DNA from: a virus
Strand: one strand, 5' to 3'
Length of the DNA: 20,109 nucleotides
IMG/VR virus record: IMGVR_UViG_3300025286_000185
Location: 1 to 20,109 of that record
Part shown: in pieces, positions 191 to 18,492 of the stretch
Numbering within the stretch: the first letter of the stretch is position 1
Layout of the letters: each line of letters begins with the position of its first letter
Position numbers and translations under genes: made by a program
Notes under the pieces: generated by a model
Told to the model about the DNA's origin: nothing
Database searches by the model: none
What the model saw: only the letters and a program-made list of their open reading frames with translations

Positions 191-718
191 ATGTCCTATG
201 AATTGCCAACGACAACGCGTGGGAGCGTTGTAAAAGCTGTCCGTAAGCATTATTTAGGTATAAAAACTTACGGTTTAGCTGTAGATGCCTTGCTAAAAGC
301 TGGGTATACCGCCATGTTTTGTACCGCTCCAAAGAAGGGTGAACAAACAAGCGCTGAACATAAACAGCGCTATGCGGCATTAAAACTCGCAGTTGTCGCG
401 GGTTTCACAGCGTCCCAACAGAAGCTCTTGGAAAAGAACACCAAGGAGTTGGATGACACGAAAAAGATCGAGAAGCGGGGCATTCAACAAGCTATCGGAG
501 CACGCGTAAGCGATTTCAAAAAGCAACTCCAACGTCGAGAAGACATCAAAAATGGTGTTAAGAAAAAACCTCGGGTTCCAAAATCTGTAGAAGAAAGGAC
601 CGAGACCACGTTGGTCGAGCTGATTGAATATCTACAGGCGGCAGAAAATACCTTGTTTGATTGCGAAGAAACAATCAATTTGCTGAAAAAGGCAAAAGAT
701 GAGGTATCGAAGCGCTAG
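191..718 (+). CDS. Hypothetical early phage protein, paralogue of the gene at 1721
   Basis: A 175-residue, lysine-rich soluble protein with no recognised domain. The frame is open upstream to 80, but the first ATGs there lie at or before the predicted -10 box. The ATG at 191 has AAAGGA eight bases ahead, so it is the chosen start. The C-terminal half is charged and probably helical or coiled coil. It aligns with the protein encoded at 1721-2272, most clearly over AIGARVSDFKKQL here and AIGAKISDSRKIL there. The two genes also share a promoter block, so they look like an old duplication. It is followed by a terminator hairpin, giving a single-gene unit driven by P1. Function is unknown. Confidence 0.8.
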   Translation: MSYELPTTTRGSVVKAVRKHYLGIKTYGLAVDALLKAGYTAMFCTAPKKGEQTSAEHKQRYAALKLAVVAGFTASQQKLLEKNTKELDDTKKIEKRGIQQAIGARVSDFKKQLQRREDIKNGVKKKPRVPKSVEERTETTLVELIEYLQAAENTLFDCEETINLLKKAKDEVSKR

Positions 719-1535: not shown

Positions 1536-1554
1536 GTTAGGGATTGTCCCTAAC
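1536..1554. repeat. Dispersed palindrome, copy 1 (spacer TTG)
   Basis: GTTAGGGA-TTG-TCCCTAAC: perfect eight-base arms with a three-base centre. Flanked by TT on the left and AA on the right, which extends the dyad to ten bases each side. Located about 70 bases upstream of the P2 -10 box. Confidence 0.85.
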
Positions 1555-1590
1555 AAAATATACCAAACTTTATTTAAACTTATCATAACT

Positions 1591-1642
1591 TGTCATACTA
1601 TCCCTTTTAATTACAAGGAATATGTGTATAATGTACATCATC
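1591..1642 (+). promoter_or_regulatory. Promoter region P2, copy of P1
   Basis: TATAAT at 1627-1632 within TGTGTATAATGTACA. The 52-base block matches 49-100 with nine substitutions and no gaps. As in P1, the conserved upstream element is TGTCA..CTATCCC, with no standard -35 at the usual distance. Confidence 0.6.
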
Positions 1643-1682
1643 AACACGGCGCAAAACAAAGCGTGAGGGTTGATGTAAACTT

Positions 1683-1701
1683 GTTAGGGATTGTCCCTAA
1701 C
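1683..1701. repeat. Dispersed palindrome, copy 2 (spacer TTG)
   Basis: GTTAGGGA-TTG-TCCCTAAC in the transcribed leader of the gene at 1721. It sits just upstream of the AAAGGAAG ribosome binding site. The paralogous gene at 191 has a different perfect hairpin (147-174) in the same place. Confidence 0.85.
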
Positions 1702-1720
1702 AAAAACCAAAGGAAGTGTT

Positions 1721-2272
1721 ATGAACACATCTACAAGAAATGCTCCCGTTTCCGAGCAAATGGAAACAGCCACCCTTAAATTGTGGAACAAAGAGGCCGG
1801 TGTAAAAAAGGAACGCGGGTTGTGGGGAAAATTGGCTAAAAAAGAAGGGTGGACGGCAAATACGTTTCTCAGTCCACATACTAAGAACCCTAATGGTTCA
1901 ACTTGCACTCCAGAACTTTGGGCATATCTCCGAACAATGGCAACCCAGCAACTAAAAGTACGGGAGCAGAAACTTGTTGCCCTAGAAAGTAACAAGGGAC
2001 TGTCGGAGAATGACAAACTTGTCCGAAGCAATGCCCAAAAGGCTATCGGCGCGAAGATCAGCGACAGCCGAAAAATTCTGCTCAAGGCTGAGAAAAAAGA
2101 GGCTGAGGCAGCGGAGGGTTATGTGGCACCCAGAAAAACTGCAGCGGAACAAGTTTTAGCAAGTTTGAATGTTGCTATCACTAAAATCCAAAACTGGGAA
2201 GACCCACACTTTGAGGCTACCCCAATTATCGAAGACCTAAAAGAGATTGCCAAAACAATCGACAAAAAATAA
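1721..2272 (+). CDS. Hypothetical early phage protein, paralogue of the gene at 191
   Basis: A 183-residue lysine-rich protein. The ATG at 1721 follows AAAGGAAG at good distance; an in-frame start at 1691 would begin inside the palindrome and is rejected. The N-terminal 60 residues differ from the product of the gene at 191. From about residue 65 on the two align, clearest over QKAIGAKISDSRKILLKAE here and QQAIGARVSDFKKQLQRRE there. The C-terminal end is acidic and helical. It is expressed from P2, a copy of P1, and closed by a strong terminator, so it forms its own transcription unit. No known domain is recognised. High early expression is suggested by the perfect TATAAT, but that is inference. 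Confidence 0.8.
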   Translation: MNTSTRNAPVSEQMETATLKLWNKEAGVKKERGLWGKLAKKEGWTANTFLSPHTKNPNGSTCTPELWAYLRTMATQQLKVREQKLVALESNKGLSENDKLVRSNAQKAIGAKISDSRKILLKAEKKEAEAAEGYVAPRKTAAEQVLASLNVAITKIQNWEDPHFEATPIIEDLKEIAKTIDKK

Positions 2273-2289
2273 CTTGTTACCCCCAACTG

Positions 2290-2317
2290 GCCACCCCTTC
2301 GGGGGTGGCTTTTTTTT
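2290..2317 (+). terminator. Intrinsic terminator
   Basis: GCCACCCC-TTCG-GGGGTGGC is an eight-pair perfect stem followed by eight T. It ends the unit that starts at P2. Confidence 0.92.
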
Positions 2318-2324
2318 GCCTAAT

Positions 2325-2383
2325 TTTTGTTAGGGACATCCCTAACAATTTTTGAAACCAGTTTCTCCATGAGCGGTGAGCCA
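2325..2383. repeat. 59 bp composite repeat, copy C (palindrome plus GAAACCAGTTTC block)
   Basis: This copy is identical to 2526-2584 except for the two bases at the palindrome centre (CA here, TG there). It contains GTTAGGGA-CA-TCCCTAAC (2329-2346) and then GAAACCAGTTTC, itself an inverted repeat (GAAAC-CA-GTTTC), followed by TCCATGAGCGGTGAGCCA. Confidence 0.85.
2329..2346. repeat. Dispersed palindrome, copy 3 (spacer CA)
   Basis: GTTAGGGACATCCCTAAC immediately after the 2290-2317 terminator, so probably outside the upstream transcript. Confidence 0.85.
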
Positions 2384-2525
2384 TTAAGTACCTGAAATGT
2401 GGCGACCATAAACTTCATGTCATAACAAGTTATAGTGTATACCCTACAGCAGTATTACCGGTGCACTGTGTACCCATAGCAATGTTCTATGTACCTGTAG
2501 TGATGATACAAACAGCTTCCTGATA

Positions 2526-2584
2526 TTTTGTTAGGGATGTCCCTAACAATTTTTGAAACCAGTTTCTCCATGAGCGGTGAGCCA
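2526..2584. repeat. 59 bp composite repeat, copy D
   Basis: Second copy of the composite unit, 201 bp downstream of the first. It matches all along except the palindrome spacer, and its last base starts an AATGTTCT octamer. Confidence 0.85.
2530..2547. repeat. Dispersed palindrome, copy 4 (spacer TG)
   Basis: GTTAGGGATGTCCCTAAC within the iteron-like gene-free region. Confidence 0.85.
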
Positions 2585-2824
2585 ATGTTCTGTGTTAAGT
2601 TATTGATAAATAAGGAATGTTCCGGTTTTGGGGGGTAATGTTCCGTAATGTTCTGTAACGAGAGAACATTATGTTTTTGTAGCAATTCGTGTCAGCTTGT
2701 ATGCAATTCTGTGGAGAAGTGCTTATCAAAACTTATCAATTTATATGTATTTATTATATAGTATGTAATGTTCTTTTTTTAAAAAATTATAAAGCGATAT
2801 TTTCGACCCCCTTGGACGCGGAGT

Positions 2825-2842
2825 GTTAGGGACGTCCCTAAC
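2825..2842. repeat. Dispersed palindrome, copy 5 (spacer CG)
   Basis: GTTAGGGACGTCCCTAAC, a fully symmetric 18 bp palindrome at the right edge of the AT-rich core, between the two octamer clusters. Confidence 0.85.
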
Positions 2843-3008
2843 AAAACTTCACCCAAATATCACTCTCCAAAATCGGAAAAAAAAGAACATTAGAACATTC
2901 TATATTTTTCAATGGGTTACAGACCCCGACTACAGAACATTACAGAACATTACAGAACATTATACGTTTTAACATGTATACGTATAATACAACACGTTTT
3001 CACAAAAC

Positions 3009-3047
3009 TTGACATTAACTGATATATATGCTATACTTGTGTATAAT
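3009..3047 (+). promoter_or_regulatory. Strong sigma70-type promoter P3
   Basis: TTGACA (3009-3014), a 17-base spacer and TATACT (3032-3037) form a near-consensus promoter. A second TATAAT lies at 3042-3047 within TGTGTATAAT, the same decamer as in P1 and P2. It points into the DUF3150-like gene and the AAA/VWA cluster. Confidence 0.8.
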
Positions 3048-3071
3048 ATAAATTGTTTAGAGGAGAAATAA

Positions 3072-4064
3072 ATGTCCTACGAAAATTCTTCAGCACCGCG
3101 TACAAACCACAACCTAAAACAAAAGGAGAAAGAAATGAATACGCAATTGAACGAAGAAATGTTAGGGAAGTCCCTAACAAAATTTGAACCCGAAACAGCC
3201 GCACCCTCTATCGCGTCATCAGCCTGTCTCTCGGAATTATCCATCAGTCAGTGGGGGGGCCGCAAAAAGGACCGCAAGGCATCAAAAGAAGTTACAGCAA
3301 ACAACAACGCCGCTTCCGGTGTCGCAAACGTCCACAAGAAACTTCTCGGAGATTGTCCCGAACTTGATGCGGTACACAAAATGACGGGTAACATCCGCAA
3401 CATGCACTACGCTATGACAATGCCGTGGAGCGATATAGGGATGCGCCTCCTGCCCACGAAACAATATTTCAACTACCACAAGCAGATGACCGAGATGGAG
3501 AACGAATGGTATAAAACCGTCGAGGCTTTTTTAAACTCCTACAATTGGGAAATCAGCAAGGCCGAGGCAAAGCTGGGTAACTTGTTCTACCGTGACGAAT
3601 ACCCAACCGTAGATACCCTCAAGGGAAAATTCTCTTTCAATCTCACTTACATACCGATCCCCGAAACTGGAGATTTTCGTATTGACATCGGGAATGAGGC
3701 TAAAGCCGAAATCGTTAGGGGTTATGGAGAATATTATTCACGCCAGATAAAAAACGCGATGGATGATATATGGTCGCGGTTGTACAGCGCATTGAACAAG
3801 ATGTCAGAACGGCTCGACTATACGAACAGTGATAACAAGAAAATCTTTCGGGACAGTATCGTTAGTAATGTCGTGGATATAATCGGTTTACTCGATACGT
3901 GTAATGTGACGGGAGACAGCCAGATGTCGGCGGCAAGACTTAAATTGGAGGAAGCCATGTACAGCGTTACTCCCGACGCACTGCGTGAGGACGACTATCT
4001 GCGCGGCGTAACGAAAAAAGCAATGGACGATGTTATTAAATCCTTACCGAGTTTGGATATATAA
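3072..4064 (+). CDS. DUF3150-like protein of the MoxR/VWA gene cluster
   Basis: A 330-residue soluble protein if translated from the ATG at 3072 (AGGAGA ahead). The in-frame ATG at 3135 has an equally strong AAGGAGAAAG ahead and would give 309 residues; both starts look usable. After a low-complexity N-terminus, residues 54-130 carry the pattern SISQWGGRKKDRKASKEV ... MPWSDIGMRLLP. I associate this with DUF3150 proteins encoded next to AAA ATPases in phages and proteobacteria, from memory only. The rest is mostly helical. The dispersed palindrome is embedded in frame near the N-terminus (3161-3178), read as LGKSLT. Its place in front of a MoxR ATPase and a VWA protein suggests a partner or substrate adaptor; this is inference. 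Confidence 0.65.
   Translation: MSYENSSAPRTNHNLKQKEKEMNTQLNEEMLGKSLTKFEPETAAPSIASSACLSELSISQWGGRKKDRKASKEVTANNNAASGVANVHKKLLGDCPELDAVHKMTGNIRNMHYAMTMPWSDIGMRLLPTKQYFNYHKQMTEMENEWYKTVEAFLNSYNWEISKAEAKLGNLFYRDEYPTVDTLKGKFSFNLTYIPIPETGDFRIDIGNEAKAEIVRGYGEYYSRQIKNAMDDIWSRLYSALNKMSERLDYTNSDNKKIFRDSIVSNVVDIIGLLDTCNVTGDSQMSAARLKLEEAMYSVTPDALREDDYLRGVTKKAMDDVIKSLPSLDI
3161..3178. repeat. Dispersed palindrome, copy 6 (spacer AG), inside a coding sequence
   Basis: GTTAGGGAAGTCCCTAAC falls in codons 30-36 of the frame from 3072 (codons 9-15 from 3135). It is the only copy inside a gene body. The following AAAATTTGAA is also shared with copy 9. Confidence 0.85.
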
Positions 4065-4065
4065 A

Positions 4066-4242
4066 ATGGGTGGGCGTCTATTGGGAATGGTTGTGATGGG
4101 GGGAATAATACTCCTCATCACTATTATTGTTATGGAATGGCTCATCGGTTGCGGTGAGAAAACCTACTACCCGAATGGAACTTGGATAACAGGCGAATGT
4201 CTGTTTATCCCTTACGAAGTAACTTACGGTTACTGGAAATAA
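4066..4242 (+). CDS. Small single-pass membrane protein
   Basis: A 58-residue protein whose ATG at 4066 follows the previous stop with one base between. Residues 5-28 (LLGMVVMGG then IILLITIIVMEWLI) are strongly hydrophobic, followed by a Cys and a polar tail with aromatic residues and a second Cys (ending TYGYWK). It looks like a bitopic inner-membrane protein with the tail outside. A lipobox is not convincing because no small residues flank the first Cys as needed. It lies between the DUF3150-like gene and the AAA ATPase gene, so it may anchor that complex; this is a guess. No family recognised. Confidence 0.6.
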   Translation: MGGRLLGMVVMGGIILLITIIVMEWLIGCGEKTYYPNGTWITGECLFIPYEVTYGYWK

Positions 4243-4245
4243 TTT

Positions 4246-4264
4246 GTTAGGGATGGTCCCTAAC
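4246..4264. repeat. Dispersed palindrome, copy 7 (spacer TGG)
   Basis: GTTAGGGA-TGG-TCCCTAAC begins three bases after a stop codon and ends about 11 bases before the AAGGA ribosome binding site of the AAA ATPase gene. Confidence 0.85.
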
Positions 4265-4289
4265 AAAAAACATAAAAGGAAAAAATCTT

Positions 4290-5384
4290 ATGAGTAATTC
4301 AGCTATACGGATGTACGCACTAAACATCGACCAGATCGCCACCGCCATACGTACAGGTGGTAACAAGCGCACCATTTTGGTGCAGGGGCACATGGGCACG
4401 GGTAAGTCTTCTATCCTAAAGATGTTAGCAGAAGATTTACCGAACCACGTACCCTGCTACTTTGACTGCACGACGAAAGATTTGGGTGATATCCAGTTAC
4501 CCAAGCTGAAAGACTTGGATGGTAAAGATTATGTTCGTTTCGCTACCAACGAGGAACTTGGCGTACATTTAGGCAAGCCGCTTATTATCATGGTTGATGA
4601 ATATGGCAAAGCCAACCCCTCCGTAAAACTTGCGCTCACCGGACTGATGCAGGAGAGAAAGATAGGCACAAGTAAACTGCACCCAGACACTATAATTTTT
4701 GCGACGACCAACCTTGGTTCCGAAGGTGTAGGTGACTTGTTACCACCACATGCCCGTAACCGTATGGCCGTTGTGCAGATGCGGAAATCAACCAACCTTG
4801 AATGGATAGAATGGGGAATAAGCAATGAAATCGACCATACATTATTGGGGTGGTGCAAGGATAATCCACAGTTGTTCGCCTCGTTTGAGGATATCAAAGA
4901 CCCAGACGAAAACCCTTATATCTACCACCCACAAGCACAAAGGACAGCGTTCTTCACACCACGTTCCGCAGAAGCGGCAAGTGATTGGCTCAAACAGCGG
5001 GAACACTTTGACGATCAAACGCTGACAGGTCTGCTCATGGGAACCATCGGGGAACGCGGGGCGATGGACTTGATGGCGTTTGTCAAGTTAGCCGATCAGC
5101 TACCGTCACTCGAAAGTATCAAGAAAGACCCGAAAAACGCTAAGGTGCCAGACAGTGCCAGCGCGGTGTGTATGGTTGTGTATCGCACGTTAGCAAGTTT
5201 AGACAAGGAGTGGGTTAACCCGTGGATGGAATACATGGTGCGCCTCGACAAGGAAGCGCAGGGTATGTTCGCCAACGGTGTTCGCGCTCCCAAATACTCC
5301 AAGCAGTCTATGGTGATGACCAATAAGAAATTCACCGATTGGGCTATGGCAAACAACTATATGTTTGCGGGGGATAAGAAATAG
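4290..5384 (+). CDS. MoxR-type AAA+ ATPase (CobS-like)
   Basis: A 364-residue AAA+ ATPase. Walker A is at residues 33-40 (GHMGTGKS). Walker B is at about 98-104 (LIIMVDE), followed by the long helical insert typical of MoxR/midasin-like ATPases. Sensor 1 Asn is at 141 (IIFATTN) and candidate arginine fingers lie at 156-158 (PHARNRM). Such ATPases act as hexameric remodelling machines, usually paired with a VWA-domain partner. That partner is encoded directly downstream. Phage homologues are often labelled CobS from similarity to the cobaltochelatase subunit, but no cobalamin gene is present here, so a chaperone-like role with the VWA protein is more likely. Start chosen with AAAAGGA ahead. 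Confidence 0.9.
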   Translation: MSNSAIRMYALNIDQIATAIRTGGNKRTILVQGHMGTGKSSILKMLAEDLPNHVPCYFDCTTKDLGDIQLPKLKDLDGKDYVRFATNEELGVHLGKPLIIMVDEYGKANPSVKLALTGLMQERKIGTSKLHPDTIIFATTNLGSEGVGDLLPPHARNRMAVVQMRKSTNLEWIEWGISNEIDHTLLGWCKDNPQLFASFEDIKDPDENPYIYHPQAQRTAFFTPRSAEAASDWLKQREHFDDQTLTGLLMGTIGERGAMDLMAFVKLADQLPSLESIKKDPKNAKVPDSASAVCMVVYRTLASLDKEWVNPWMEYMVRLDKEAQGMFANGVRAPKYSKQSMVMTNKKFTDWAMANNYMFAGDKK

Positions 5385-5401
5385 TTAGGGATGTCCCTAA
5401 C
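5384..5401. repeat. Dispersed palindrome, copy 8 (spacer TG)
   Basis: GTTAGGGATGTCCCTAAC. Its first G is the last base of the TAG stop codon of the AAA ATPase gene. A second hairpin (GGGTGG at 5409-5414 with CCACCC at 5424-5429) lies between it and the next ribosome binding site. Confidence 0.85.
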
Positions 5402-5452
5402 AAAATCAGGGTGGGGTATCGCTCCACCCCTTAACTGGAAGGATAAAAGCAA

Positions 5453-6670
5453 ATGTTAACATTAGGTAAATCACTCACCACTGAACAGCGATTATCGAAA
5501 GCTGTTGTGTCTATTATGAGTAACGAAAAGTATGTGGCTTTGGCTGGCATACTTATGATTGGAGACCGGAGTGTACGTGACGACATACCTACCGCGTGTA
5601 CGAATGGACGTGATGAGATGTACGGTAGGGAATTTGTCGATAAACTTTCTGACCCAGAATTACGATTCCTTACACTTCATGAGTGCTACCACAAACTCTA
5701 CAAACATCTTACCACGTGGAGGCATCTGTACGAAGAAGACCCGCAACTTGCAAACATGGCCTGTGATTACGTCATTAACCTAAAGATAACCGATGATAAC
5801 AAGGATGGTTTTGCGGTGATGCCAAAAGAAGGTCTTTTGGATGAGCAGTTTCGCGGGATGGATAGCGCACAGGTGTTTGACATCTTAAAGCAGGATACTC
5901 CTTCCAATAATCATCCCGACAATTCCGGGACAGGTAATGGTTCAAATGGAAAGTCGTTACCACAAGGTTTCGATGAGCATGATTGGGAAAGCGCAAAGGA
6001 ACTTTCCGAAGAGGAGAAGCGGGAACTTGGACGGGATATCGACGAAGCCATACGGCAGGGTGCGTTGATCGCTGGCAAGTTAGGTACAGGGGCAGATCGT
6101 GAATTAAAAGATTTGCTTAAACCGCAAGTGGATTGGCGGGAAGTCATGCGGGAATTTATTACGATGACTTGTTCAGGCAACGACTACTCCACCTACAGAC
6201 GACCTAACAGGCGTTTCCTATCAGCCGATATATTTATGCCGAGTGGTATATCCGAAAGCGTCGAGGGTGTTGTCGTTGCTGGCGACATGTCTGGTTCCAT
6301 CGGGCAACGTGAACAGGCTGTCATTCTCACCGAGGCTAAACAAATGTTCGATACCGTTCATCCTAATTGGGTGCGTATGTTGTATTGGGACACAGTGGTA
6401 TGTTCAGATGAGAAATACGAACAACACCAACTGGATCAATTTGTAAAGTCTACCAAGCCAAAGGGCGGCGGCGGCACCGATGTCGAGTGCGTCCCCAAAC
6501 ATATGACCGATAACAACATCAAGGCACAGGCCGCAATTGTTATAACTGATGGGTATCTCGGCGGTTCATGGGGGGAATGGGATTGTCCTGTCTTGTGGGT
6601 TGTTGTTGATAACAAGGGAGCCAAACCCACCGTTGGTACCTGTATACATGTCAGTTCGAGGGAGTTGTAA
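5453..6670 (+). CDS. Metallopeptidase-like plus VWA domain protein (DUF2201/CobT-like)
   Basis: A 405-residue two-domain protein. The N-terminal half carries a zinc-metallopeptidase motif HECYH (HExxH) at residues 76-80, followed by ACDYVIN at about 103-109, a usual further element of this putative metallopeptidase domain. A linker (150-175) is rich in Asn, Gly and Ser. The C-terminal half is a VWA-like domain with a MIDAS metal site: DMSGS at 278-282, a Thr at 342 (GGTD) and TDG at 365-367. This matches DUF2201-type proteins that partner MoxR ATPases. All key residues seem intact. It likely binds a target through the metal site and is remodelled or activated by the upstream ATPase. Ribosome binding site GGAAGGA precedes the ATG, and the stop overlaps the next start (TAATG). 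Confidence 0.88.
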   Translation: MLTLGKSLTTEQRLSKAVVSIMSNEKYVALAGILMIGDRSVRDDIPTACTNGRDEMYGREFVDKLSDPELRFLTLHECYHKLYKHLTTWRHLYEEDPQLANMACDYVINLKITDDNKDGFAVMPKEGLLDEQFRGMDSAQVFDILKQDTPSNNHPDNSGTGNGSNGKSLPQGFDEHDWESAKELSEEEKRELGRDIDEAIRQGALIAGKLGTGADRELKDLLKPQVDWREVMREFITMTCSGNDYSTYRRPNRRFLSADIFMPSGISESVEGVVVAGDMSGSIGQREQAVILTEAKQMFDTVHPNWVRMLYWDTVVCSDEKYEQHQLDQFVKSTKPKGGGGTDVECVPKHMTDNNIKAQAAIVITDGYLGGSWGEWDCPVLWVVVDNKGAKPTVGTCIHVSSREL

Positions 6671-7092
6671 TGCTAAGTGCAATAACTTGTTTGGCTATGG
6701 CTGTTTATTTCGAGGCTCGTAACCAACCGACAGCAGGGCAATTGGCGGTGGCTCAAGTGGTGATTAACCGTGTCCAGTCCCGTCGCCATCCAGATACCGT
6801 GTGTAAAGTTGTTATGGAGGGGCCGGTGTACCCATCCGGCCACCCTCGACGTAATATGTGTCAGTTCTCATTCTGGTGTGATGGTAAACCCGAACGTCCC
6901 GTGAACAAGGATGCGTGGGAGATGGCGTTGCGTATCGCCTCCGCTGTAACCGATACCAGTTTCTACCCCCTCGATGTTTCCGAGGGAGCTACATTCTACC
7001 ATTCAACCCAAGTGTCCCCAGTGTGGAGGCATACAATGAAAGTGACCGTCAGAATTGGTGATCACGTGTTTTATAAAACAGGAGAAAGATAA
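6670..7092 (+). CDS. Cell wall hydrolase, SleB/CwlJ type (Hydrolase_2)
   Basis: A 140-residue single-domain protein matching the SleB/CwlJ cell wall hydrolase family. It shows AVYFEAR (probable catalytic Glu at residue 15), AVAQVVINRV, CQFSFWCDG in the middle, ATFYHSTQVSPVW and a C-terminal GDHVFYK. These enzymes cut peptidoglycan and serve as phage or bacterial muralytic proteins. There is no separate signal peptide: the hydrophobic N-terminus is part of the fold. Export would therefore need a holin or another route. It is translationally coupled to the VWA gene (TAATG) and to the next small gene (TAATG), an unusual place for a lysis enzyme, far from the expected lysis cassette. The lytic role is inferred from the family. 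Confidence 0.88.
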   Translation: MLSAITCLAMAVYFEARNQPTAGQLAVAQVVINRVQSRRHPDTVCKVVMEGPVYPSGHPRRNMCQFSFWCDGKPERPVNKDAWEMALRIASAVTDTSFYPLDVSEGATFYHSTQVSPVWRHTMKVTVRIGDHVFYKTGER

Positions 7093-7226
7093 TGGAATAC
7101 AAAGAAGCATTAAGATTATTTGAGGAAGTATTAGAAACCACCCTTGACCGTATGCGGCAGGAGGGGTGTTCAGAACAGGAAGTCCAAAAGGTGAAAGATG
7201 CTTTCAATAAGGTTAGAAATGGTTAG
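7092..7226 (+). CDS. Hypothetical 44-residue protein
   Basis: ATG at 7092 overlaps the hydrolase stop by one base (TAATG), with AGGAGAAAG ahead as ribosome binding site. The product is a short acidic and basic helix, beginning MEYKEALRLFEEVLETTL and ending FNKVRNG. The heptad-like pattern suggests an amphipathic or coiled-coil peptide. Its TAG stop lies inside the next palindrome (7222-7239). The tight coupling and good ribosome binding site support it as real. Function is unknown. Confidence 0.6.
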   Translation: MEYKEALRLFEEVLETTLDRMRQEGCSEQEVQKVKDAFNKVRNG

Positions 7227-7239
7227 GGACGTCCCTAAC
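7222..7239. repeat. Dispersed palindrome, copy 9 (spacer CG)
   Basis: GTTAGGGACGTCCCTAAC. The TAG within its left arm (7224-7226) is the stop codon of the 44-residue gene. The downstream AAAATTTGAA is shared with copy 6. Confidence 0.85.
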
Positions 7240-7354
7240 AAAATTTGAAGATAAAAAAATGGACTTTAACCATCGAAAAAATAACTCATGTGCCTGTGTC
7301 AGATTAGATCGGGTATACGCTAGAAAGAAATTTAACCGAAAAGGATATAAACTA

Positions 7355-8356
7355 ATGGGTGATTTAAATACATTTGAAGATGTAAAAAAGCGTTACGACG
7401 AAACACGTGTTCTTGTGAGCGGCGTTCATTCCCGCGAAGAAGATGTAAGACCTATCGGTAGGAGAAGCCGAAAATGGGAACGTGTGGAGAAAGGCTCGCC
7501 AGATAAATATGTGTTGCATGACGTGTTACCACGAAACCCTAGCAGTTGGGGGTCTGATTGGCACAGAAGGGCATTAAGGAGACCCCCGATTGTATGGGAG
7601 CGACAACTCGCAAACGCGACTTCGACAGAATTTGTTACTGTGCGTGGGGCTGTGTCTGAAGGGTATGATACATCTAGATATAATTTTCTTCGTTTCTGGC
7701 TCCCCCTTGGTCTTGAGTTTGATAACTGGACACAAATAGGGAAGCATTTCGTCAATGTATATGATCCAAGTCTGGGTGCTAGTAGGATGCGTGTGAACCG
7801 TTATTACCTACCGCGTCCCGAATTTACAAAACCCACCCAAAATTATGCTGGAAGCCACAAGGATTATTTTTTGACATTCAAGCGCGAGAACAAGGGTCTC
7901 TGGCAATTATGTAGCGAGGAACATAACACCCCGAAAATACGTGTGAACAAGGAAGCAAAAAAAGCACTTAAAGAAGATATAGCGTCTTTCTTTACTTGGC
8001 TATGTGCGACAGGCCCACTGCTGAAGATTGAGAGAGATGAGTTTTCGTTTCCTACCTTGTCTTACATGCAGACGGAAGTAAATGAATACGTTTCCGAGCA
8101 TAAAGAATTTCTGGAAAATGATGTTGATTATAATTCGGTTTATAGCCGAGGCAGTTTACATATGGGTCCAAAACTTGCGCTAAGTGTTCTAACGGATTAT
8201 AATCATCCACTACGTATACATCTCGCTTCAATGTTTTTGATGCTAAATGATATAAAACAACTCAATACAGAAGAAGATGTCCGTTCTTTTAAAGCCGCGT
8301 TTAATAAATGGGCGAACAGAATTTTTGATTTTAACTATATAACAAGGGGTAAATAG
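7355..8356 (+). CDS. Hypothetical 333-residue protein
   Basis: ATG at 7355 follows AAAAGGAT at a fitting distance. An in-frame ATG at 7259 has no ribosome binding site and adds a low-complexity basic leader, so 7355 is preferred. The protein is soluble, rich in Trp, Arg and Tyr, with no membrane segment and no catalytic pattern I recognise. The middle (about residues 100-135) is aromatic-rich (RYNFLRFWLPLGLEFDNW). The C-terminal third is helical. The 24 bases at 7605-7628 are identical to 8508-8531 in the next gene but are read in another frame. It lies first in a three-gene group of unknowns ending at 9552. Function is unknown. Confidence 0.75.
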   Translation: MGDLNTFEDVKKRYDETRVLVSGVHSREEDVRPIGRRSRKWERVEKGSPDKYVLHDVLPRNPSSWGSDWHRRALRRPPIVWERQLANATSTEFVTVRGAVSEGYDTSRYNFLRFWLPLGLEFDNWTQIGKHFVNVYDPSLGASRMRVNRYYLPRPEFTKPTQNYAGSHKDYFLTFKRENKGLWQLCSEEHNTPKIRVNKEAKKALKEDIASFFTWLCATGPLLKIERDEFSFPTLSYMQTEVNEYVSEHKEFLENDVDYNSVYSRGSLHMGPKLALSVLTDYNHPLRIHLASMFLMLNDIKQLNTEEDVRSFKAAFNKWANRIFDFNYITRGK

Positions 8357-8357
8357 T

Positions 8358-9317
8358 ATGTCTAGAACTCATGAGCAATGGACGGCAGACTGTACTGCTG
8401 TGACTGATAGTGAACTTTCCGAGTGGGGAACCCCGTTGCCCCTTAAAAAGTTTATAAATGAAATCCGAAAAATTTTTCCTAAGTGTAGTTTTTCGCAGAG
8501 GGGGGAAAACTCGCAAACGCGACTTCGACAGGATGTACATGCAAGTCCATTGGGGAGTAACGTCTACCAGCAACCCCACAGTTTTTGGGTTTACCATGCG
8601 TATAAACCTCTTTGTATGGGGTGGGTATCTCTGCACATAAGACCATACGACCAGAAAAACGGAAAAAATAATAAGCCGCAATATATAGTGTATTCAAAAA
8701 GGATATCTAATGAGAAATATGCTTCTTATAATTGGAAACACCATTCAGTCAGTAGTGTAAACTTAAAAGTTGCATTACGTAATGTTCGAAAATACTTGCG
8801 TGATTATAGTGCAGTAGAAGTTGCTTCTAAAGAAAGTAATGAATGTCGTAGAGGGTGGAGTAACACCGATGAAGCCATGCGAAAAAAGCTGAGTAACGCA
8901 CGGCGCAATGTTACTGTTGATGATGGAGGGAATGATCCACTTCTGAGGGAATTGTTGTCTGTAGAAAATTCGGATTACAATTTTATTGACCCTGAGTTTG
9001 GTCAAAAAGTTACCGAGTTTCTGGATGCTCACAGGGAGCATAAAGAGCGTCTTGAAGGGCGTACAAAACGTATGCTGTTAGTGAGTGTGGAGAAAGATTT
9101 TCATGGTAACGACTTATATTGCACAGCTTTAACAGACGATATATCCGAATGGAAAACAAAATGGGTAGAGGGGGAGAGATATAATTCAGAAAATATCCCC
9201 GAAGCTCTAATGGGAAAATTATCGGTGTTGAGTATGGGTAAGAATGGGCAGTATTTTGATAACGTAGGTTATCGTGCAACGGAGACTTGTTTTTATGTCG
9301 TACAGGAAGATGTTTAA
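8358..9317 (+). CDS. Hypothetical 319-residue protein with a C-terminal domain shared with the next gene
   Basis: ATG at 8358 has AAGGGG ahead and follows the previous stop by one base. The N-terminal part (to about residue 110) is basic and aromatic. The central part is charged and helical. The last 90 residues resemble the whole product of the next gene: here NIPEALMGKLSVL...QYFDNVGY...CFYVVQ, there ELPQWMQERLAVL...IYYGDFGK...SFWVVQ. So a domain appears to have been duplicated and is either a tail domain or a free protein. No known family is recognised and no catalytic motif is visible. Confidence 0.75.
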   Translation: MSRTHEQWTADCTAVTDSELSEWGTPLPLKKFINEIRKIFPKCSFSQRGENSQTRLRQDVHASPLGSNVYQQPHSFWVYHAYKPLCMGWVSLHIRPYDQKNGKNNKPQYIVYSKRISNEKYASYNWKHHSVSSVNLKVALRNVRKYLRDYSAVEVASKESNECRRGWSNTDEAMRKKLSNARRNVTVDDGGNDPLLRELLSVENSDYNFIDPEFGQKVTEFLDAHREHKERLEGRTKRMLLVSVEKDFHGNDLYCTALTDDISEWKTKWVEGERYNSENIPEALMGKLSVLSMGKNGQYFDNVGYRATETCFYVVQEDV

Positions 9318-9552
9318 CGATAACGTATATCACGTTTACCTAAACCCAGATACAAATTGTATTCATGTGTCATGTATTGGTATGAATAGGCTTGACACTG
9401 ATGTGGGAGGTGTCTACAGTAGCATAGAAGAATTGCCGCAATGGATGCAGGAAAGGTTAGCGGTGCTGTTAGTTGTGCAACCCAATATATATTATGGAGA
9501 TTTTGGTAAGTCTATTGACAAAAATTCTTTTTGGGTTGTGCAACCACAATAA
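9295..9552 (+). CDS. Hypothetical 85-residue protein, free-standing copy of the preceding C-terminal domain
   Basis: The frame overlaps the end of the preceding gene by 23 bases. I choose ATG at 9295 (GGAG ten bases ahead); GTG at 9274 and ATG at 9310 are alternatives. The product contains NVYHVYLNPDTNCIHVSC, suggesting beta strands, then a helix (IEELPQWMQERLAVLL) and a final strand (NSFWVVQPQ). It resembles residues 233-319 of the preceding protein in order and spacing. A palindrome and a terminator follow the stop. Function is unknown. Confidence 0.7.
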   Translation: MSYRKMFNDNVYHVYLNPDTNCIHVSCIGMNRLDTDVGGVYSSIEELPQWMQERLAVLLVVQPNIYYGDFGKSIDKNSFWVVQPQ

Positions 9553-9553
9553 T

Positions 9554-9571
9554 GTTAGGGACGTCCCTAAC
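9554..9571. repeat. Dispersed palindrome, copy 10 (spacer CG)
   Basis: GTTAGGGACGTCCCTAAC starting one base after the TAA stop of the 85-residue gene and ending five bases before a terminator hairpin. Confidence 0.85.
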
Positions 9572-9574
9572 AAA

Positions 9575-9621
9575 TTAGGGAGGGGTTTCGGCCTCTCCCT
9601 TTTTGAAACCAGTTTTTTTGG
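9575..9621. repeat. 47 bp direct repeat, left copy (terminator plus GAAACCAGTT)
   Basis: The 47 bases here are identical to 10183-10229. The unit contains a full intrinsic terminator and GAAACCAGTT followed by a T run. The two copies bracket the gene at 9683-10162. Confidence 0.9.
9577..9604 (+). terminator. Intrinsic terminator (left copy)
   Basis: AGGGAGGGG and CCTCTCCCT pair with one G-U wobble around TTTCGG, followed by five T in total (9600-9604). It ends the group 7355-9552. Confidence 0.88.
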
Positions 9622-9625
9622 GATT

Positions 9626-9643
9626 GTTAGGGACATCCCTAAC
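9626..9643. repeat. Dispersed palindrome, copy 11 (spacer CA)
   Basis: GTTAGGGACATCCCTAAC, the last copy in the window, about 40 bases upstream of the gene at 9683. None was found from here to 20109. Confidence 0.85.
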
Positions 9644-9662
9644 AAAATTTTAACAAAACTTT

Positions 9663-9678
9663 AATGTTCTAGGAGAAC
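9663..9678 (+). promoter_or_regulatory. Octamer and small dyad over a ribosome binding site
   Basis: AATGTTCT (9663-9670) is another copy of the octamer repeated at 2481-2961. It overlaps GTTCT-AGG-AGAAC, a five-base inverted repeat whose centre contains the AGGAG ribosome binding site of the gene at 9683. This could be an operator or a small mRNA hairpin; not proven. Confidence 0.4.
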
Positions 9679-9682
9679 TTAT

Positions 9683-10162
9683 ATGCATAAAATTAACCTA
9701 AATACGAGCGCGACTGTTGTACCTGTAACAAACGCAATCCGCGCAAAAAAGGGTGACTATTTATTTGTTAAAGATGAAGGTGACATTGTTGTTATTGACA
9801 ACAAAACATTTCAAGCGTTAACGAAGACTGAACTTGTAGTAAAAATGGGCACAGACAAAGTGTCCAACGGTACTTCTGAGGGGCTTAATGGTTCGTTTTT
9901 AGACCAAGATATTTTAAATACAAAAATTTTAAATAATTTAGAAGACCCAATAACGACAACAGATTTGATGAAAGAAATGTTGGGGCCAAAATTACCATAC
10001 AATAAAGTAGAATATAAGCGAGTTTATCACTCGTTAGGACGGCTTAAAAATGCTGGAAAAATCGAATCTGTTTTAGTTGATGACGAGTATAATAAGGAGC
10101 TTAAACGCCCCGTACATTTATGGGGACTTCGCAAGAAAAATGAAGATAGCGGGGATGAGTAG
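9683..10162 (+). CDS. Hypothetical protein with a winged-helix-like C-terminus
   Basis: A 159-residue acidic protein. ATG at 9683 follows AGGAGAAC at good spacing. The N-terminal 50 residues look like beta strands (KKGDYLFVKDEGDIVVID). A linker is rich in Asn and Ser. Residues 92-152 have a helix-turn-helix then wing pattern: ITTTDLMKEMLG, YKRVYHSLGRLKNAGKIESV, RPVHLWGL. This is typical of winged-helix DNA-binding domains, though the match is by eye only. The gene is set between two identical 47 bp terminator repeats and follows the last palindrome, so it may be a regulator expressed on its own. A candidate for the factor binding the palindromes or octamers; speculative. Confidence 0.7.
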   Translation: MHKINLNTSATVVPVTNAIRAKKGDYLFVKDEGDIVVIDNKTFQALTKTELVVKMGTDKVSNGTSEGLNGSFLDQDILNTKILNNLEDPITTTDLMKEMLGPKLPYNKVEYKRVYHSLGRLKNAGKIESVLVDDEYNKELKRPVHLWGLRKKNEDSGDE

Positions 10163-10163
10163 C

Positions 10164-10184
10164 GGGGGCGCATAACCCCCTTTT
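10164..10184 (+). terminator. Short intrinsic terminator, first of a tandem pair
   Basis: GGGGG (10164-10168) and CCCCC (10176-10180) around CGCATAA, followed by TTTT. It starts one base after the stop of the preceding gene. Confidence 0.7.
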
Positions 10185-10229
10185 AGGGAGGGGTTTCGGC
10201 CTCTCCCTTTTTGAAACCAGTTTTTTTGG
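10183..10229. repeat. 47 bp direct repeat, right copy
   Basis: Identical to 9575-9621. It includes the second terminator of a tandem pair (10185-10212), and its final TTTGG runs into the leader of the VRR-NUC gene. Confidence 0.9.
10185..10212 (+). terminator. Intrinsic terminator (right copy)
   Basis: Same hairpin as at 9577-9604, followed by five T. With the hairpin at 10164 it gives a double stop after the winged-helix-like gene. Confidence 0.85.
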
Positions 10230-10237
10230 AAACAAGA

Positions 10238-10534
10238 ATGACCCCTGAAGGCAAAGTTAAGAAAGCGGTAACAAAACAACTCAAAGAGTTGGGAGCATAT
10301 TATTTTTTTCCCATGACCGGAGGGTACGGAAGAAGCGGTGTACCGGATATAGTCGGATGCTACAATGGATACTTCTTTGGGATTGAATGTAAAGCAGGTA
10401 AGAATAAACCCACACCGCTACAGCAAAAGAACTTAACAGATATTCAAAACGCAAACGGCCTGAGCTGGGTAGTCAATGAGGAAAATGTTTCTGGAGTTTC
10501 GGATAAGTTGAATGGTCTCGGTATTAAAACATAA
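10238..10534 (+). CDS. VRR-NUC domain nuclease
   Basis: A 98-residue single-domain nuclease of the VRR-NUC branch of the PD-(D/E)XK fold. It shows Glu4 (TPEGKVK), an aromatic strand, GVPDIVG with Asp37, and IECK with Glu50 and Lys52, then Gln62-Gln63 (LQQKNL). These are the expected catalytic residues and none is missing. Phage VRR-NUC proteins are stand-alone nucleases, often near helicases, proposed to process branched or junction DNA in replication and recombination. ATG at 10238 is chosen; a TTG at 10211 inside the terminator is rejected. The ribosome binding site is weak (GGAAACAAG). The 3' end overlaps the next gene by 23 bases. Confidence 0.9.
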   Translation: MTPEGKVKKAVTKQLKELGAYYFFPMTGGYGRSGVPDIVGCYNGYFFGIECKAGKNKPTPLQQKNLTDIQNANGLSWVVNEENVSGVSDKLNGLGIKT

Positions 10535-10883
10535 TTATTGCCTTGAGGATTTATTACTCAAAGAAGCAAGCCAACTGGAAATGGCAGGTAACACTGCGGA
10601 AGCATATAGCCGTTTGAATGATGCTTTGAGAGCAAACGAAATTCAAGGAAGGTCATTAAGCAGGGCAAAAAAAGGTATATATAAATGTGATTTATGGCCC
10701 CCCCTGCAAGTTTTTAATGATTGGATTCTTGATGACGAAATTGATTGGTCTGACATTCCTGACTTCAATCCTAATTTTAGGAGCGGGGCTGAACGTAGTG
10801 AGCAAAGGCAGAAATACAAGAAAAAGGCTTATCGTAAATTCATCAAACAAAGAGATGAAGATGAAACTTCTTACAACGAGTAA
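10512..10883 (+). CDS. Hypothetical 123-residue protein
   Basis: The frame opens at ATG 10512, overlapping the VRR-NUC gene by 23 bases without a strong ribosome binding site; ATG 10581 is an alternative. The product has a helical N-terminus (LEDLLLKEASQLEMAGNTAE), a Trp- and Asp-rich middle (FNDWILDDEIDWSDIPDF) and a basic C-terminal helix with many Lys and Arg (EQRQKYKKKAYRKFIKQRDE). It may bind nucleic acid, but nothing specific is seen. The stop is followed by a structured gene-free region. Confidence 0.6.
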   Translation: MVSVLKHNYCLEDLLLKEASQLEMAGNTAEAYSRLNDALRANEIQGRSLSRAKKGIYKCDLWPPLQVFNDWILDDEIDWSDIPDFNPNFRSGAERSEQRQKYKKKAYRKFIKQRDEDETSYNE

Positions 10884-11073
10884 CCCATGTCTGATTGTGC
10901 ATGGGCGGCTAAGTGGGAGAGAGGCCGAAAATTATCCTCCCGCAACAACAGGTTTTGGTTTTAGAGGGGCGGCTTCCTGCAACGAGAGAGCTTGCCCCGT
11001 TATTATCCTTTCCCTTAATGCTGTTGTCGGGTAAGCACGCTACGTTAGTCCCCCCTAAATGGGGGGCATTTTT
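10884..11073 (+). ncRNA. Candidate structured RNA with its own terminator
   Basis: A 215-base gap between genes holds several stems. CCCATG (10884-10889) pairs with CATGGG (10900-10905), and GGGAG (10915-10919) with CTCCC (10937-10941). CCCG plus ACAACAG (10939-10951) pairs with CTGTTGT plus CGGG (11021-11031), enclosing GGGGC (10966-10970) with GCCCC (10994-10998). The second and third stems share bases, so two folds may compete. A strong terminator closes the segment. I recognise no known RNA family; it could also be a structured 3' end of the upstream mRNA. Confidence 0.4.
11050..11073 (+). terminator. Intrinsic terminator before the replication operon
   Basis: CCCCCC (11050-11055), TAAAT loop, GGGGGG (11061-11066), then CATTTTT. 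Confidence 0.85.
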
Positions 11074-11098
11074 GGAATAAGAATTAAAAGAGGATAGC

Positions 11099-11296
11099 GT
11101 GAAAAAAATTGATAATATTATAGAGTTTCCTCGGAATACAAAGTCTACGCCTCCAGAAGAAATAGAAGTAATGATATTTGATTGTGGTCACACATCTGGG
11201 CATTTGGTAGATGATGGAAGGGTTAGATGTGCTACTTGCTTCACTGTGGTAGCAAACATCATGTGGCGCGTACACACATCCCCACTGATTGATTAA
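11099..11296 (+). CDS. Small zinc-ribbon-like protein
   Basis: A 65-residue protein with a GTG start at 11099 and AGAGGA ahead. It has a putative zinc site: Cys29 and His31 (DCGH) plus Cys44 and Cys47 (CATC), separated by a short beta-hairpin-like stretch. This spacing fits a small zinc ribbon. It is the first gene after the terminator and so may head the replication operon, followed by a 39-base gap to the next start. A role in DNA or protein binding is plausible for the fold but not shown. Confidence 0.65.
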   Translation: MKKIDNIIEFPRNTKSTPPEEIEVMIFDCGHTSGHLVDDGRVRCATCFTVVANIMWRVHTSPLID

Positions 11297-11335
11297 ACCA
11301 TTGAAAATATAATTTAACATATAAGGAGAAGTAAA

Positions 11336-11692
11336 TTGGCAGAACAACTTGAACTTCCTTTTAATGAACCACTAGGCCCGAAACGCCCTGATGTACGTGC
11401 AAACGTGTTACGTACAGCGGAAAAATATATTGTTAGAGACAGGGCAGACGAGCATGGAGATATGGAAGATAATTTTGGCACTATTGCTAAATATTGGTCC
11501 GAACATCTGGGTACTCATGTTTCAGCGGTGGATGTAGCCGTTATGATGACATTATTGAAGATCGCTCGGTTGAAAAACAATGAACCAAATTGGGATAACT
11601 GGGTTGATGGATGTGGTTATCTGGCTTGCGGTGCTGAACTTGTTTCCAAAAGATTGGACGTCGAGGAGGAAGCATTGAATAGGGGTGGCTGA
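11336..11692 (+). CDS. DUF6378 family phage protein
   Basis: A 118-residue protein with a TTG start at 11336 preceded by AAGGAGAAG, which decides the start. It matches the DUF6378 pattern by eye: RADEHGDMEDNFGTIAKYWS, then VAVMMTLLKIARL, then NWDNWVDGCGYLACGAEL. The family is common in tailed phages beside replication genes; its role is not established as far as I know. Paired His and Asp residues (EHGD, DNW) recall nucleotide-handling all-alpha folds such as MazG, but that is a guess. It ends two bases before the polymerase ATG. Confidence 0.8.
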   Translation: MAEQLELPFNEPLGPKRPDVRANVLRTAEKYIVRDRADEHGDMEDNFGTIAKYWSEHLGTHVSAVDVAVMMTLLKIARLKNNEPNWDNWVDGCGYLACGAELVSKRLDVEEEALNRGG

Positions 11693-11694
11693 AC

Positions 11695-13542
11695 ATGGAT
11701 TTAATAACTGTAGATTTTGAAACTTATTACGATAAAGAGTTTTCATTATCGAAAATGACAACGGAGGAGTATATCCGTGACCCCCGTTTTGAAGTTATTG
11801 GGGTAGGAACTAAGATAAACAGCGAGAGAACGGAGTGGGCTAGTGGATCGAAAGAACAGATTAAGAAATTCCTACAAACATTCGATTGGGACGAGACTAT
11901 GTTTCTTGCTCATAACACTATGTTTGATGGGGCTATTGCTAGTTGGTTGTTTGATATTCATCCTCGGGCTTATGCCGATACTTTGTGTATCGCCCGTGCT
12001 GTGGATGGGGTGGAAGTTAGTGGAAGTCTCAAAGCGTTGGTTGAAAGGTATTCTCTCGGCGTTAAAGGCACCGAAGTCATCAACGCACTCGGGAAGCACC
12101 GAGCGGATTTCTCACCAAGAGAACTCTCACGATACGGTGACTACTGTATAAATGATGTGGATTTGACTTATGCTCTGTTTAAAGTTCTTGGTAAAGATTT
12201 TCCCATAAAAGAATTAAAACTTATAGACCTTAGTTTACGCATGTTTATAAATCCTACGTTGGGTTTAGATCTGGAGCTATTGGAACAACATCTTGTGGAA
12301 ACACGTGACCACAAGAACAAGTTATTGGGGGCAGCGGGGGTTGATAGGGAAGTTTTAATGAGCAACCTTAAATTTGCGGGGCTTTTGAGGAAGTCTGGGG
12401 TTACACCTCCAATAAAAATAAGCCAAACGACAGGTAAGGAAACATTTGCTTTCGCTAAATCTGATGAGGAATTTATAGCTCTCATGGATCATGAAGACCC
12501 AAGGGTACAAACTTTAATCGCGGCCCGTCTTGGGAACAAAAGTACGTTAGAAGAAACACGTACACAGAGGTTTATAGATATTGCTAAACGTGGGCTGCTG
12601 CCGGTACCTGTTAAATACTACGCCGCGCATACAGGTAGGTGGGGTGGTGACGATAAGATTAATCTACAGAATCTTCCAAGTAGAGGCACACAAGGTAAGA
12701 AGTTAAAGCGGAGCATACTAGCCCCCGAAGGACATTCCCTGATCGACGCCGATTCCGCCCAGATAGAGGCACGTATTCTGGCGTGGCTTGCCGAGCAAGA
12801 GGACTTGGTAAGCGCATTTGCCAACGGTGAAGATGTTTATAAGAAAATGGCCTCTCGTATTTACGGGATAGGGGAGGAAGATGTGTCAGCCGCACAGAGG
12901 TTTGTAGGCAAGACCACTATCCTTGGGGCTGGTTATGGCATGGGCGCGGTTCGGTTTCGGGAACAGCTAAAGAACTTCGGGACCAAAATAGACAAGTGGG
13001 AAGCACAGAGAGTTATAAAGATATATAGAGAGGCCAATTACGACATATATAATTTATGGAGGGCCGCTCAGAATATGTTGGTATATCTATCACGAGGGGA
13101 CGCCCTTTCGTTCGGACGTGGCAACTTGTTAACAGTAGATGTAGAACATAGTGCACTGCAGCTCCCGTCTGGTTTGTTGTTGAGATACGCCGATCTGCAA
13201 AATGAGAAAGGCTATGCGGGTCAAGCTAATTTTGGAACTGGGTTGGAATTATCTTATCAAACACGGCGTGGTCGCACTCGTATATACGGCGGTAAAGTTA
13301 TAGAGAATGTATGCCAAGCTCTTGCGCGTTGCATAATCGGGGACCAAATGTTAAAAATATCAAAGAAATATCAGGTTGTGCTGACGGTGCATGACTCGGT
13401 TGTGTGCTGTGTAGCCGACGAGGAAGTAGAAGAAGCGCAAAACTACATCGAAACTTGTATGCGCGAGGTGCCTGATTGGGCCGACGGACTCCCGATAGAT
13501 TGTGAATCGGGCGTAGGCAAATCTTATGGAGATTGTGAATGA
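11695..13542 (+). CDS. Family A DNA polymerase with 3'-5' exonuclease domain
   Basis: A 615-residue phage replicative polymerase related to E. coli Pol I. Exonuclease motifs are intact: DFET at residues 7-10, HNTMFD at 73-78 and Y150-x3-D154. Polymerase motif A is DADSAQIEAR at 351-360, motif B runs from Arg402 and Lys406 to GAGYG, and motif C is HDS at 566-568. There is no 5'-3' exonuclease domain, as usual for phage enzymes. Leu410 occupies the position of E. coli Phe762, a variant reported as frequent in temperate or slow phages. It sits two bases after the DUF6378 gene and overlaps the next gene (ATGA), within the replication operon. Confidence 0.96.
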   Translation: MDLITVDFETYYDKEFSLSKMTTEEYIRDPRFEVIGVGTKINSERTEWASGSKEQIKKFLQTFDWDETMFLAHNTMFDGAIASWLFDIHPRAYADTLCIARAVDGVEVSGSLKALVERYSLGVKGTEVINALGKHRADFSPRELSRYGDYCINDVDLTYALFKVLGKDFPIKELKLIDLSLRMFINPTLGLDLELLEQHLVETRDHKNKLLGAAGVDREVLMSNLKFAGLLRKSGVTPPIKISQTTGKETFAFAKSDEEFIALMDHEDPRVQTLIAARLGNKSTLEETRTQRFIDIAKRGLLPVPVKYYAAHTGRWGGDDKINLQNLPSRGTQGKKLKRSILAPEGHSLIDADSAQIEARILAWLAEQEDLVSAFANGEDVYKKMASRIYGIGEEDVSAAQRFVGKTTILGAGYGMGAVRFREQLKNFGTKIDKWEAQRVIKIYREANYDIYNLWRAAQNMLVYLSRGDALSFGRGNLLTVDVEHSALQLPSGLLLRYADLQNEKGYAGQANFGTGLELSYQTRRGRTRIYGGKVIENVCQALARCIIGDQMLKISKKYQVVLTVHDSVVCCVADEEVEEAQNYIETCMREVPDWADGLPIDCESGVGKSYGDCE

Positions 13543-13880
13543 CAAAAAAACTAGATTTAGGTGAGGAACATGTTGCACACCGTGCGACTTTAGGAGGTAT
13601 AACTGAAAACTTTTTCACGCAATCTACGTCCGAGGCTACGTTACGACAAGTTCTTGATACGTTTGCCGACTGCAGAAAATGTGGGGGTTTTGCAGAGTTT
13701 ACTGAAACTATTGAGGTAGATACAGGAGTTGCTAGGTTTAAGACCTTGTGTTGGAGATGTAGCCATAGAGATGGGTTTACAAGTAAAACTACCAAGAACA
13801 ATATGGGCGGATTTACAGTTCAAGTTACTTGGGATGATAAGTCAGAATCCCCTAGCCATTTAAGCCTTGTAAAAAAATGA
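13539..13880 (+). CDS. Hypothetical four-Cys zinc-ribbon protein
   Basis: A 113-residue protein overlapping the polymerase stop (ATGA) and the next gene by four bases. Cys45 and Cys48 (CRKC), with Cys71 and Cys74 (CWRC), form a likely zinc ribbon with about 22 residues between knuckles. The N-terminal 40 residues look helical and the C-terminal 35 are polar. Zinc ribbons next to phage polymerases often help hold DNA or protein partners, but the role here is unknown. Both overlaps point to coupled translation with its neighbours. Confidence 0.75.
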   Translation: MTKKLDLGEEHVAHRATLGGITENFFTQSTSEATLRQVLDTFADCRKCGGFAEFTETIEVDTGVARFKTLCWRCSHRDGFTSKTTKNNMGGFTVQVTWDDKSESPSHLSLVKK

Positions 13881-14542: not shown

Positions 14543-14796
14543 TGGTTTATACTAAATCCCCTCGACCTTATAAACGTGAATACCAATTACAAAAACAACG
14601 TGGCGAACACGGGGCGCGTATGGAACGTCAAAAAGCTAGACGGGCGTTGGATAAAAAAGGTGTCAACCGAAAAGGTAAAGATATAAGCCACAATAAACCA
14701 CTCCGTAGTGGTGGCACTAATGCAGACGGGTATAGACTAATGAGTCCCAGTAAAAACCGTGCAAACAATGGTAAGAGGAAGACGAAAAAAACATAG
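14542..14796 (+). CDS. HNH-like small basic phage protein
   Basis: An 84-residue, very basic protein (many Lys and Arg). The C-terminal half follows the HNH-fold pattern DxxHxxPLxxGGTNxxxNxxxxSxxxNR: here DISHNKPLRSGGTNADG and then SPSKNRANNGK. The first catalytic-type His is present, but the Asp that usually precedes it is Ser, so endonuclease activity is uncertain. Similar small proteins occur in phage replication modules. TAATG coupling with the nuclease gene upstream; 25 bases to the helicase start. Confidence 0.7.
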   Translation: MVYTKSPRPYKREYQLQKQRGEHGARMERQKARRALDKKGVNRKGKDISHNKPLRSGGTNADGYRLMSPSKNRANNGKRKTKKT

Positions 14797-14821
14797 CGCA
14801 AGGTAATCAGGAGAACATAAC

Positions 14822-16357: not shown

Positions 16358-16418
16358 CCCATATCCTGTCACTAATATGCGTTCTCTATAAAGATTTAAA
16401 AGATCAGGAGAGACGAGG

Positions 16419-18430: not shown

Positions 18431-18444
18431 TTTCTATTTATATA

Positions 18445-18474
18445 ACCGCGGCTGTATCGTTGTATGGCCGCGGT
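18445..18474 (+). other. Intergenic hairpin before the primase gene
   Basis: ACCGCGGC (18445-18452) and GCCGCGGT (18467-18474) are exact complements around a 14-base loop. The following CCTCTCTT is a poor T-tract. It may be a weak terminator or an RNA stability or processing site that lowers primase expression relative to the SSB-like gene. Confidence 0.55.
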
Positions 18475-18492
18475 CCTCTCTTGGGTGTAAAA

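Follow-up and report, generated by a model that had tools for sequence, protein, structure and literature searches.

The question raised by this locus is what a palindrome with invariant arms, repeated many times in one virus contig, is for, and whether it is read as DNA or as RNA and by which molecule. We examined it in the window, by which we mean the whole stretch of DNA analysed, a 20,109-base virus contig, and in its relatives from metagenomes.

The palindrome set and its placement

The window contains GTTAGGGA-N2/3-TCCCTAAC as 11 exact copies with 16 of 16 arm bases intact (Table 1), whereas no copy is expected by chance and none occurred in 100 dinucleotide shuffles. All eleven positions given in the original prediction were confirmed with complete arms, and the variable centres agreed with its listing, the gap from GTTAGGG to CCCTAAC being 4 nt in eight copies and 5 nt in three. 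Its claim that no copy lies at 9644-20109 was also borne out, since a scan of the whole window at up to two mismatches revealed no twelfth copy. As had been claimed as well, ten of the 11 copies lie between genes or overlap a stop codon, the exception being the copy at 3161. Copies 3 and 4 have a common 59-nt repeat (97%). A search of Rfam returned no family matching the palindrome, and a literature search at title level found no paper on such a phage motif.

Table 1 Features of the window discussed in the text (positions in the window; strand given where assigned)
Feature	Position	Strand	Context
Palindrome copy 1	1536..1554		GTTAGGGATTGTCCCTAAC; upstream of the promoter of the second putative regulator gene
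Palindrome copy 2	1683..1701		Between that promoter and the start codon at 1721
Palindrome copy 3	2329..2346		Non-coding, past the terminator of the putative regulator gene
Palindrome copy 4	2530..2547		Same post-terminator non-coding region as copy 3
Palindrome copy 5	2825..2842		Non-coding region with AATGTTC/GAACATT repeats
Palindrome copy 6	3161..3178		Within the DUF3150 coding sequence, N-terminal part; 152 nt past the start of the -35 box
Palindrome copy 7	4246..4264		AAA ATPase gene begins 25 nt on
Palindrome copy 8	5384..5401		On the AAA stop codon; VWA gene 51 nt on
Palindrome copy 9	7222..7239		Intergenic
Palindrome copy 10	9554..9571		Stop codon immediately before, terminator-like hairpin after
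Palindrome copy 11	9626..9643		Gene at 9683 begins 39 nt on
Probable palindrome-binder gene, paralog 2 (183 aa)	1721..2272	+	Identified by covariation; promoter has palindromes on both sides
Paralog 1 of the 183-aa family	191..718	+	No palindrome nearby
Promoter-like repeat	1581..1642	+	TGTGTATAAT at 1623; between palindromes 1 and 2
Sigma-70-like promoter of the DUF3150-AAA-VWA operon	3009..3037	+	TTGACA-N17-TATACT
Putative replication origin	2481..2961		AATGTTC then inverted GAACATT repeats, A+T-rich core, before DUF3150

The same pattern was found in at least 119 stretches of IMG/VR and in a 32-kb contig (G007) with the identical 11 sites and the same proteins as the window. Thus sets of the motif are present in related phages, where the original prediction would have been undermined by their absence or random occurrence. 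The window is a fragment of a group of virulent-looking phages of about 60 kb known from metagenomes only. Four members (G001-G004, 59-63 kb) consist of two diverging units, a late unit (terminase, portal, capsid) and an early/replication unit, in which the ~183-aa gene is followed by a long non-coding region and then by genes for DUF3150, AAA ATPase, VWA, polA, exonuclease, helicase and primase. In none of the 13 genomes of 59-67 kb that have a clear set does an exact palindrome occur outside the early unit, and every group member examined has a comparable set of sites in its early/replication region. No tyrosine or serine integrase and no ParA were detected with PF00589, PF00239 and PF13614 in 14-15 records, some of which may be fragments. 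Megablast gave no match to isolates, no homolog of the 183-aa protein was found among phage-collection isolates at the sensitivity used, and the examined parts of HTVC023P, DSL-LC04, KPP25 and RHph_TM3_14A are without a comparable palindrome set, the last having only three GTTACCT palindromes. Planktothrix phage Pag-Yong1 (L245, L246), an annotated cyanophage isolate, has an analogous set of 17 copies of GGTTCAG-N-CTGAACC, many of them at gene borders of the early region; no 183-aa homolog was detectable in it.

Across the sites collected, 114 of 144 are non-coding, and for half of these the next start codon is no more than 45 nt away, overlap with the previous stop being frequent. Sites near genes are typically placed 10-42 nt ahead of the start codon, with many abutting the preceding stop. 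An A at +1 versus a T at -1 in the flanks was considered as proof of orientation and rejected, because this bias largely reflects overlap with upstream stop codons. Of the near-perfect sigma-70 promoters that point in the early direction, 16 in number, 13 are followed by a site at no more than 300 nt, and seven promoter-proximal sites are located 73-81 nt from the start of the -35 box, at about +40 of the transcript, which is the position expected for a roadblock or a leader element. In five genomes (G001, G022, G023, G024, G028) the first site stands upstream of an early promoter.

Several other repeats share this region. The DUF3150-AAA-VWA (DUF2201) module, at 3072-6670 of the window, adjoins palindromes throughout the phage group, and the AATGTTC/GAACATT arrangement of the putative origin also occurs in G001-G004, G021-G024 and G030. 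A second dispersed element, TGAWACCAGTT followed by GCGGTGMGCC, is present at 1430-1462, 1503-1535, 2353-2385 and 2554-2586 of the window, often behind terminators, and similar GATRCCAGTT elements are found in many related loci (L006, L015, L019). In addition, an identical 47-nt repeat (9575-9621 and 10183-10229) comprises a terminator-like hairpin and a GAAACCAGTT element.

Switching of arm type and the 183-residue protein family

The loci of relatives were collected through the AAA protein alone. In these loci the arm type changes set-wide, each phage having one type with all copies alike. GTTAGTG is the commonest type, followed by GTTAGGG, GTTAGTC, GTTATAC and others; GTTAGGC, GTTAGCC, GTTATCC, TCTAGTC, TGTAGTC, TCCCGTC and CCTGACC were found later. 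At least 17 type changes are required on the AAA tree. Comparison of G024 with G022 and G023 captured one such change, in which orthologous sites have turned from GTTAGGG to GTTATAC in both arms with conserved flanks, while other orthologous sites are cleanly absent. A 65.7-kb genome (G029) has imperfect sites in which arm position 6 is either T or C (GTTAGYC), as though intermediate between types.

We scanned 23 protein families in triplets of phages for alignment columns that track palindrome type where phylogeny points the opposite way. Among families with many triplets, the top three columns were residues 110, 113 and 115 of the 183-aa family (numbering of G002), all in one helix. Residue 114 is Asp or Glu in 63 of 64 non-redundant proteins from phages whose arm ends in G, the exception being one GTG protein with Q114, and Lys or Arg in all 14 from phages whose arm ends in C. 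This rule was checked in two hold-out sets: the types GTTAGGC, TCTAGTC, TGTAGTC, CCTGACC and TCCCGTC had Lys or Arg throughout, and in the second set 17 of 17 scorable new proteins, some only 30-36% identical to earlier ones, agreed with it. For GTTAGCC (L260, L261) and GTTATCC (L270, L271), further types from which no 183-aa gene was recovered, the rule predicts Lys or Arg because these arms end in C. The chemistry fits, since Asp/Glu accepts a hydrogen bond from N4 of C, and the opposite-strand G receives one from Lys/Arg. In about 17 other families of the same phages, no column separated G from C perfectly where more than 16 members were available; the perfect columns of the helicase family come from only 16 rows, three of them of one class. 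The AAA tree contains only three independent G/C switches with both kinds of data, too few for an independent-pairs test to reach significance, so the Fisher value is an overstatement and the covariation statistics are supportive, not final.

Residues 110 and 113 are mostly Ser and Lys with GGG, and Ala and Asn/Gly with GTG. The two paralogs of the window have the expected D114 but A110/S113 instead of the S110/K113 of most GTTAGGG phages, so the 110/113 code is not strict. Paralog 1 looks like a reader of GTTAGTG, of which the window contains no site. Its start at 191 is preferred over one at 80 because promoter elements occupy 81-96. The homolog in a phage with the divergent type TTTACGG is itself divergent and has T114, outside the residue-114 rule. 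Duplication of this gene was seen in some phages, namely in the window and in L148 (6553 and 7410); that of the window took the promoter along, the promoter-like repeat at 1581-1642 having an 81% copy at 39-100.

These data strongly suggest that the ~183-aa product of the first early gene is the binding partner of the palindromes. The original prediction had proposed the products of the genes at 9683 and 16808 instead, which is probably wrong, as the former product was not found in G001-G004 although the sites there are the same, and the best column of the latter family scored 0.42 in the triplet scan. DUF3150, AAA, VWA, the 319/333-aa family and polA were also considered as binders and rejected, their columns being weaker or scattered.

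AlphaFold (AF2) models of two members of the 183-aa family are all-helical with high confidence (pLDDT 90.1, and 90.7 for the 1721-2272 product), and the covarying residues lie on a helix of about 36 residues. Profile and fold searches of PDB, BFVD and Pfam found no significant relative, and PHROG matches were weak and scattered.

Proposed function and alternatives

Based on these results, we consider it rather probable that the first early gene encodes a DNA-binding protein that regulates its own synthesis and has the palindromes as its operators. The 183-aa protein would bind them as DNA, probably as a dimer, with its long helix reading the arm in the major groove; the arm centres, 10-12 bp apart, would be separated by one helical turn. 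The sites lie on both sides of the promoter of its own gene, about 40 nt into early leaders and at gene borders of the early/replication operon. Repression is our best guess for the outcome: the protein may lower expression of its own gene and of the early genes, both by preventing initiation and by stalling host RNA polymerase in elongation. In related phages the sites have changed as a set along with the proposed reading residues, which would define groups that differ from one another in specificity. Several points stand against the operator model. Spacers of 3-5 in one genome are unusual for a rigid dimer, no homolog of the protein was detectable in the isolated cyanophage Pag-Yong1 with its similar set, the A110/S113 of the window's paralogs and the Q114 of one GTG protein deviate from the residue pattern, and the independent G/C switches number only three.

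The original prediction had left the choice between dispersed repressor sites and RNA hairpins. If the palindromes formed hairpins in early transcripts, and the same protein bound these close to ribosome-binding sites and thereby controlled translation or the decay of the mRNA, this would account for the closeness of half of the non-coding sites to start codons (within 45 nt) and for the promoter-proximal sites at about +40, and the main point in favour of hairpins is the variable spacing, as gaps of 3-5 nt suit loops. However, among variant sites, pairing was broken one-sidedly 71 times, with eight G-U pairs and no compensatory double change, and pairing of the flanks was not above expectation. 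Moreover, the first site precedes an early promoter in the five genomes named above, several sites lie in the non-coding region past a terminator, the palindrome matches no Rfam family, and the coding site in DUF3150 is kept in different reading frames. The one-sided variants, the site upstream of the promoter and the frame-independent DUF3150 site together favour DNA, and the palindromes likely act as DNA rather than RNA. Thus the repressor half of that choice gained ground, as the sites are placed between genes and near promoters, are confined to the early operon, switch as a whole set with residues of a phage protein and are conserved across phages, and the hairpin half became unlikely, given the absence of compensatory changes within a type, the lack of a G-U excess and the site upstream of the promoter.

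We regard as slightly less likely still that the sites serve replication or DNA organisation, with the protein loading at palindromes around a putative origin and initiating, timing or partitioning replication in the manner of ParB or N15 SopB. The sites do cluster round the AATGTTC/GAACATT repeats and continue through the replication genes, but no ParA was found, placement tracks promoters and gene starts rather than the origin alone, and G026 and G028 have sites without the repeats in that region. Activation or antitermination through the same protein, raising early transcription, is improbable: a first site at about -75 upstream of the promoter of the protein's own gene in several genomes would suit an activator, but many sites are found within transcription units, 10-42 nt ahead of a start codon, where they come too late for activation of a promoter serving that gene. 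Host-factor sites or a self-spreading palindromic repeat with no phage-encoded partner, to which the common 59-nt repeat of two window copies could point, are very improbable, as flanks are otherwise unrelated, exact sites are confined to the early region and a phage protein has residues that change along with the whole set.

Comparison with known systems

In cluster A mycobacteriophages such as L5, Bxb1 and TipsytheTRex, many stoperator copies occupy short intergenic spaces and positions near early promoters, and both site consensus and repressor specificity vary among relatives (PMC9283540, PMC6550527). The operator model appears to resemble this system most, with one site recurring between genes or close to promoters in the early/lytic region. 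Blockage of transcription elongation by the bound protein, a feature of the L5 system, would be shared under the model, which departs from that system in three features. L5 sites are asymmetric 13-mers in one orientation to transcription, whereas those described here are palindromes. The L5 repressor combines an HTH with a stoperator domain and binds as a monomer, whereas the 183-aa protein has no convincing match to a known DNA-binding family or fold; profile and fold searches for an L5 gp71-type repressor gave no significant PDB match and no Pfam model above cut-off. Finally, L5-type phages integrate or carry parABS, and no integrase or ParA was found in the 14-15 records of this group.

T1-like lytic phages (T1, Stevie, TLS) have 16-20 dispersed intergenic repeats that have been likened to stoperators and whose role is unknown (PMC4319613, PMC11447400). 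Those repeats are 22 bp long, asymmetric and oriented, with no known binder, in contrast to the palindromes and the candidate binder found here by covariation. Operators of lambda-type repressors are palindromic, few and clustered, are bound by an HTH protein and fall into specificity classes among relatives. The present sites are alike in being palindromic and in having specificity classes, but about ten of them are dispersed over 3-18 kb and the candidate protein is a long-helix one. Dispersed palindromes near replication genes are also known from parS/ParB and the N15 centromere; here no ParA was found, placement is linked to promoters and gene borders, and the protein is unrelated.

It is conceivable, if unlikely in its entirety, that the 183-aa proteins form an undescribed phage DNA-binding family, which reads DNA by a long helix according to a partly decipherable residue-to-base code and governs dispersed palindromic operators in virulent phages, that mutual repression among co-infecting relatives gave rise to the specificity groups, and that extra copies of foreign specificity, such as paralog 1 of the window, are used against competitors.

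An unexplained repeat set has been tied to one specific protein through residue-base covariation, in a common aquatic phage group of which no cultured member was found. This provides a putative new family of DNA-reading proteins whose code can be tested, and a natural series of co-switched operator sets in which the joint change of a regulator and its roughly ten sites can be followed. The groups may represent immunity-like specificity in phages without an integrase, and the findings may also be relevant to T1-like lytic phages, whose intergenic repeats are unexplained. The co-switched sites and protein residues make an unstudied system of gene control directly testable.
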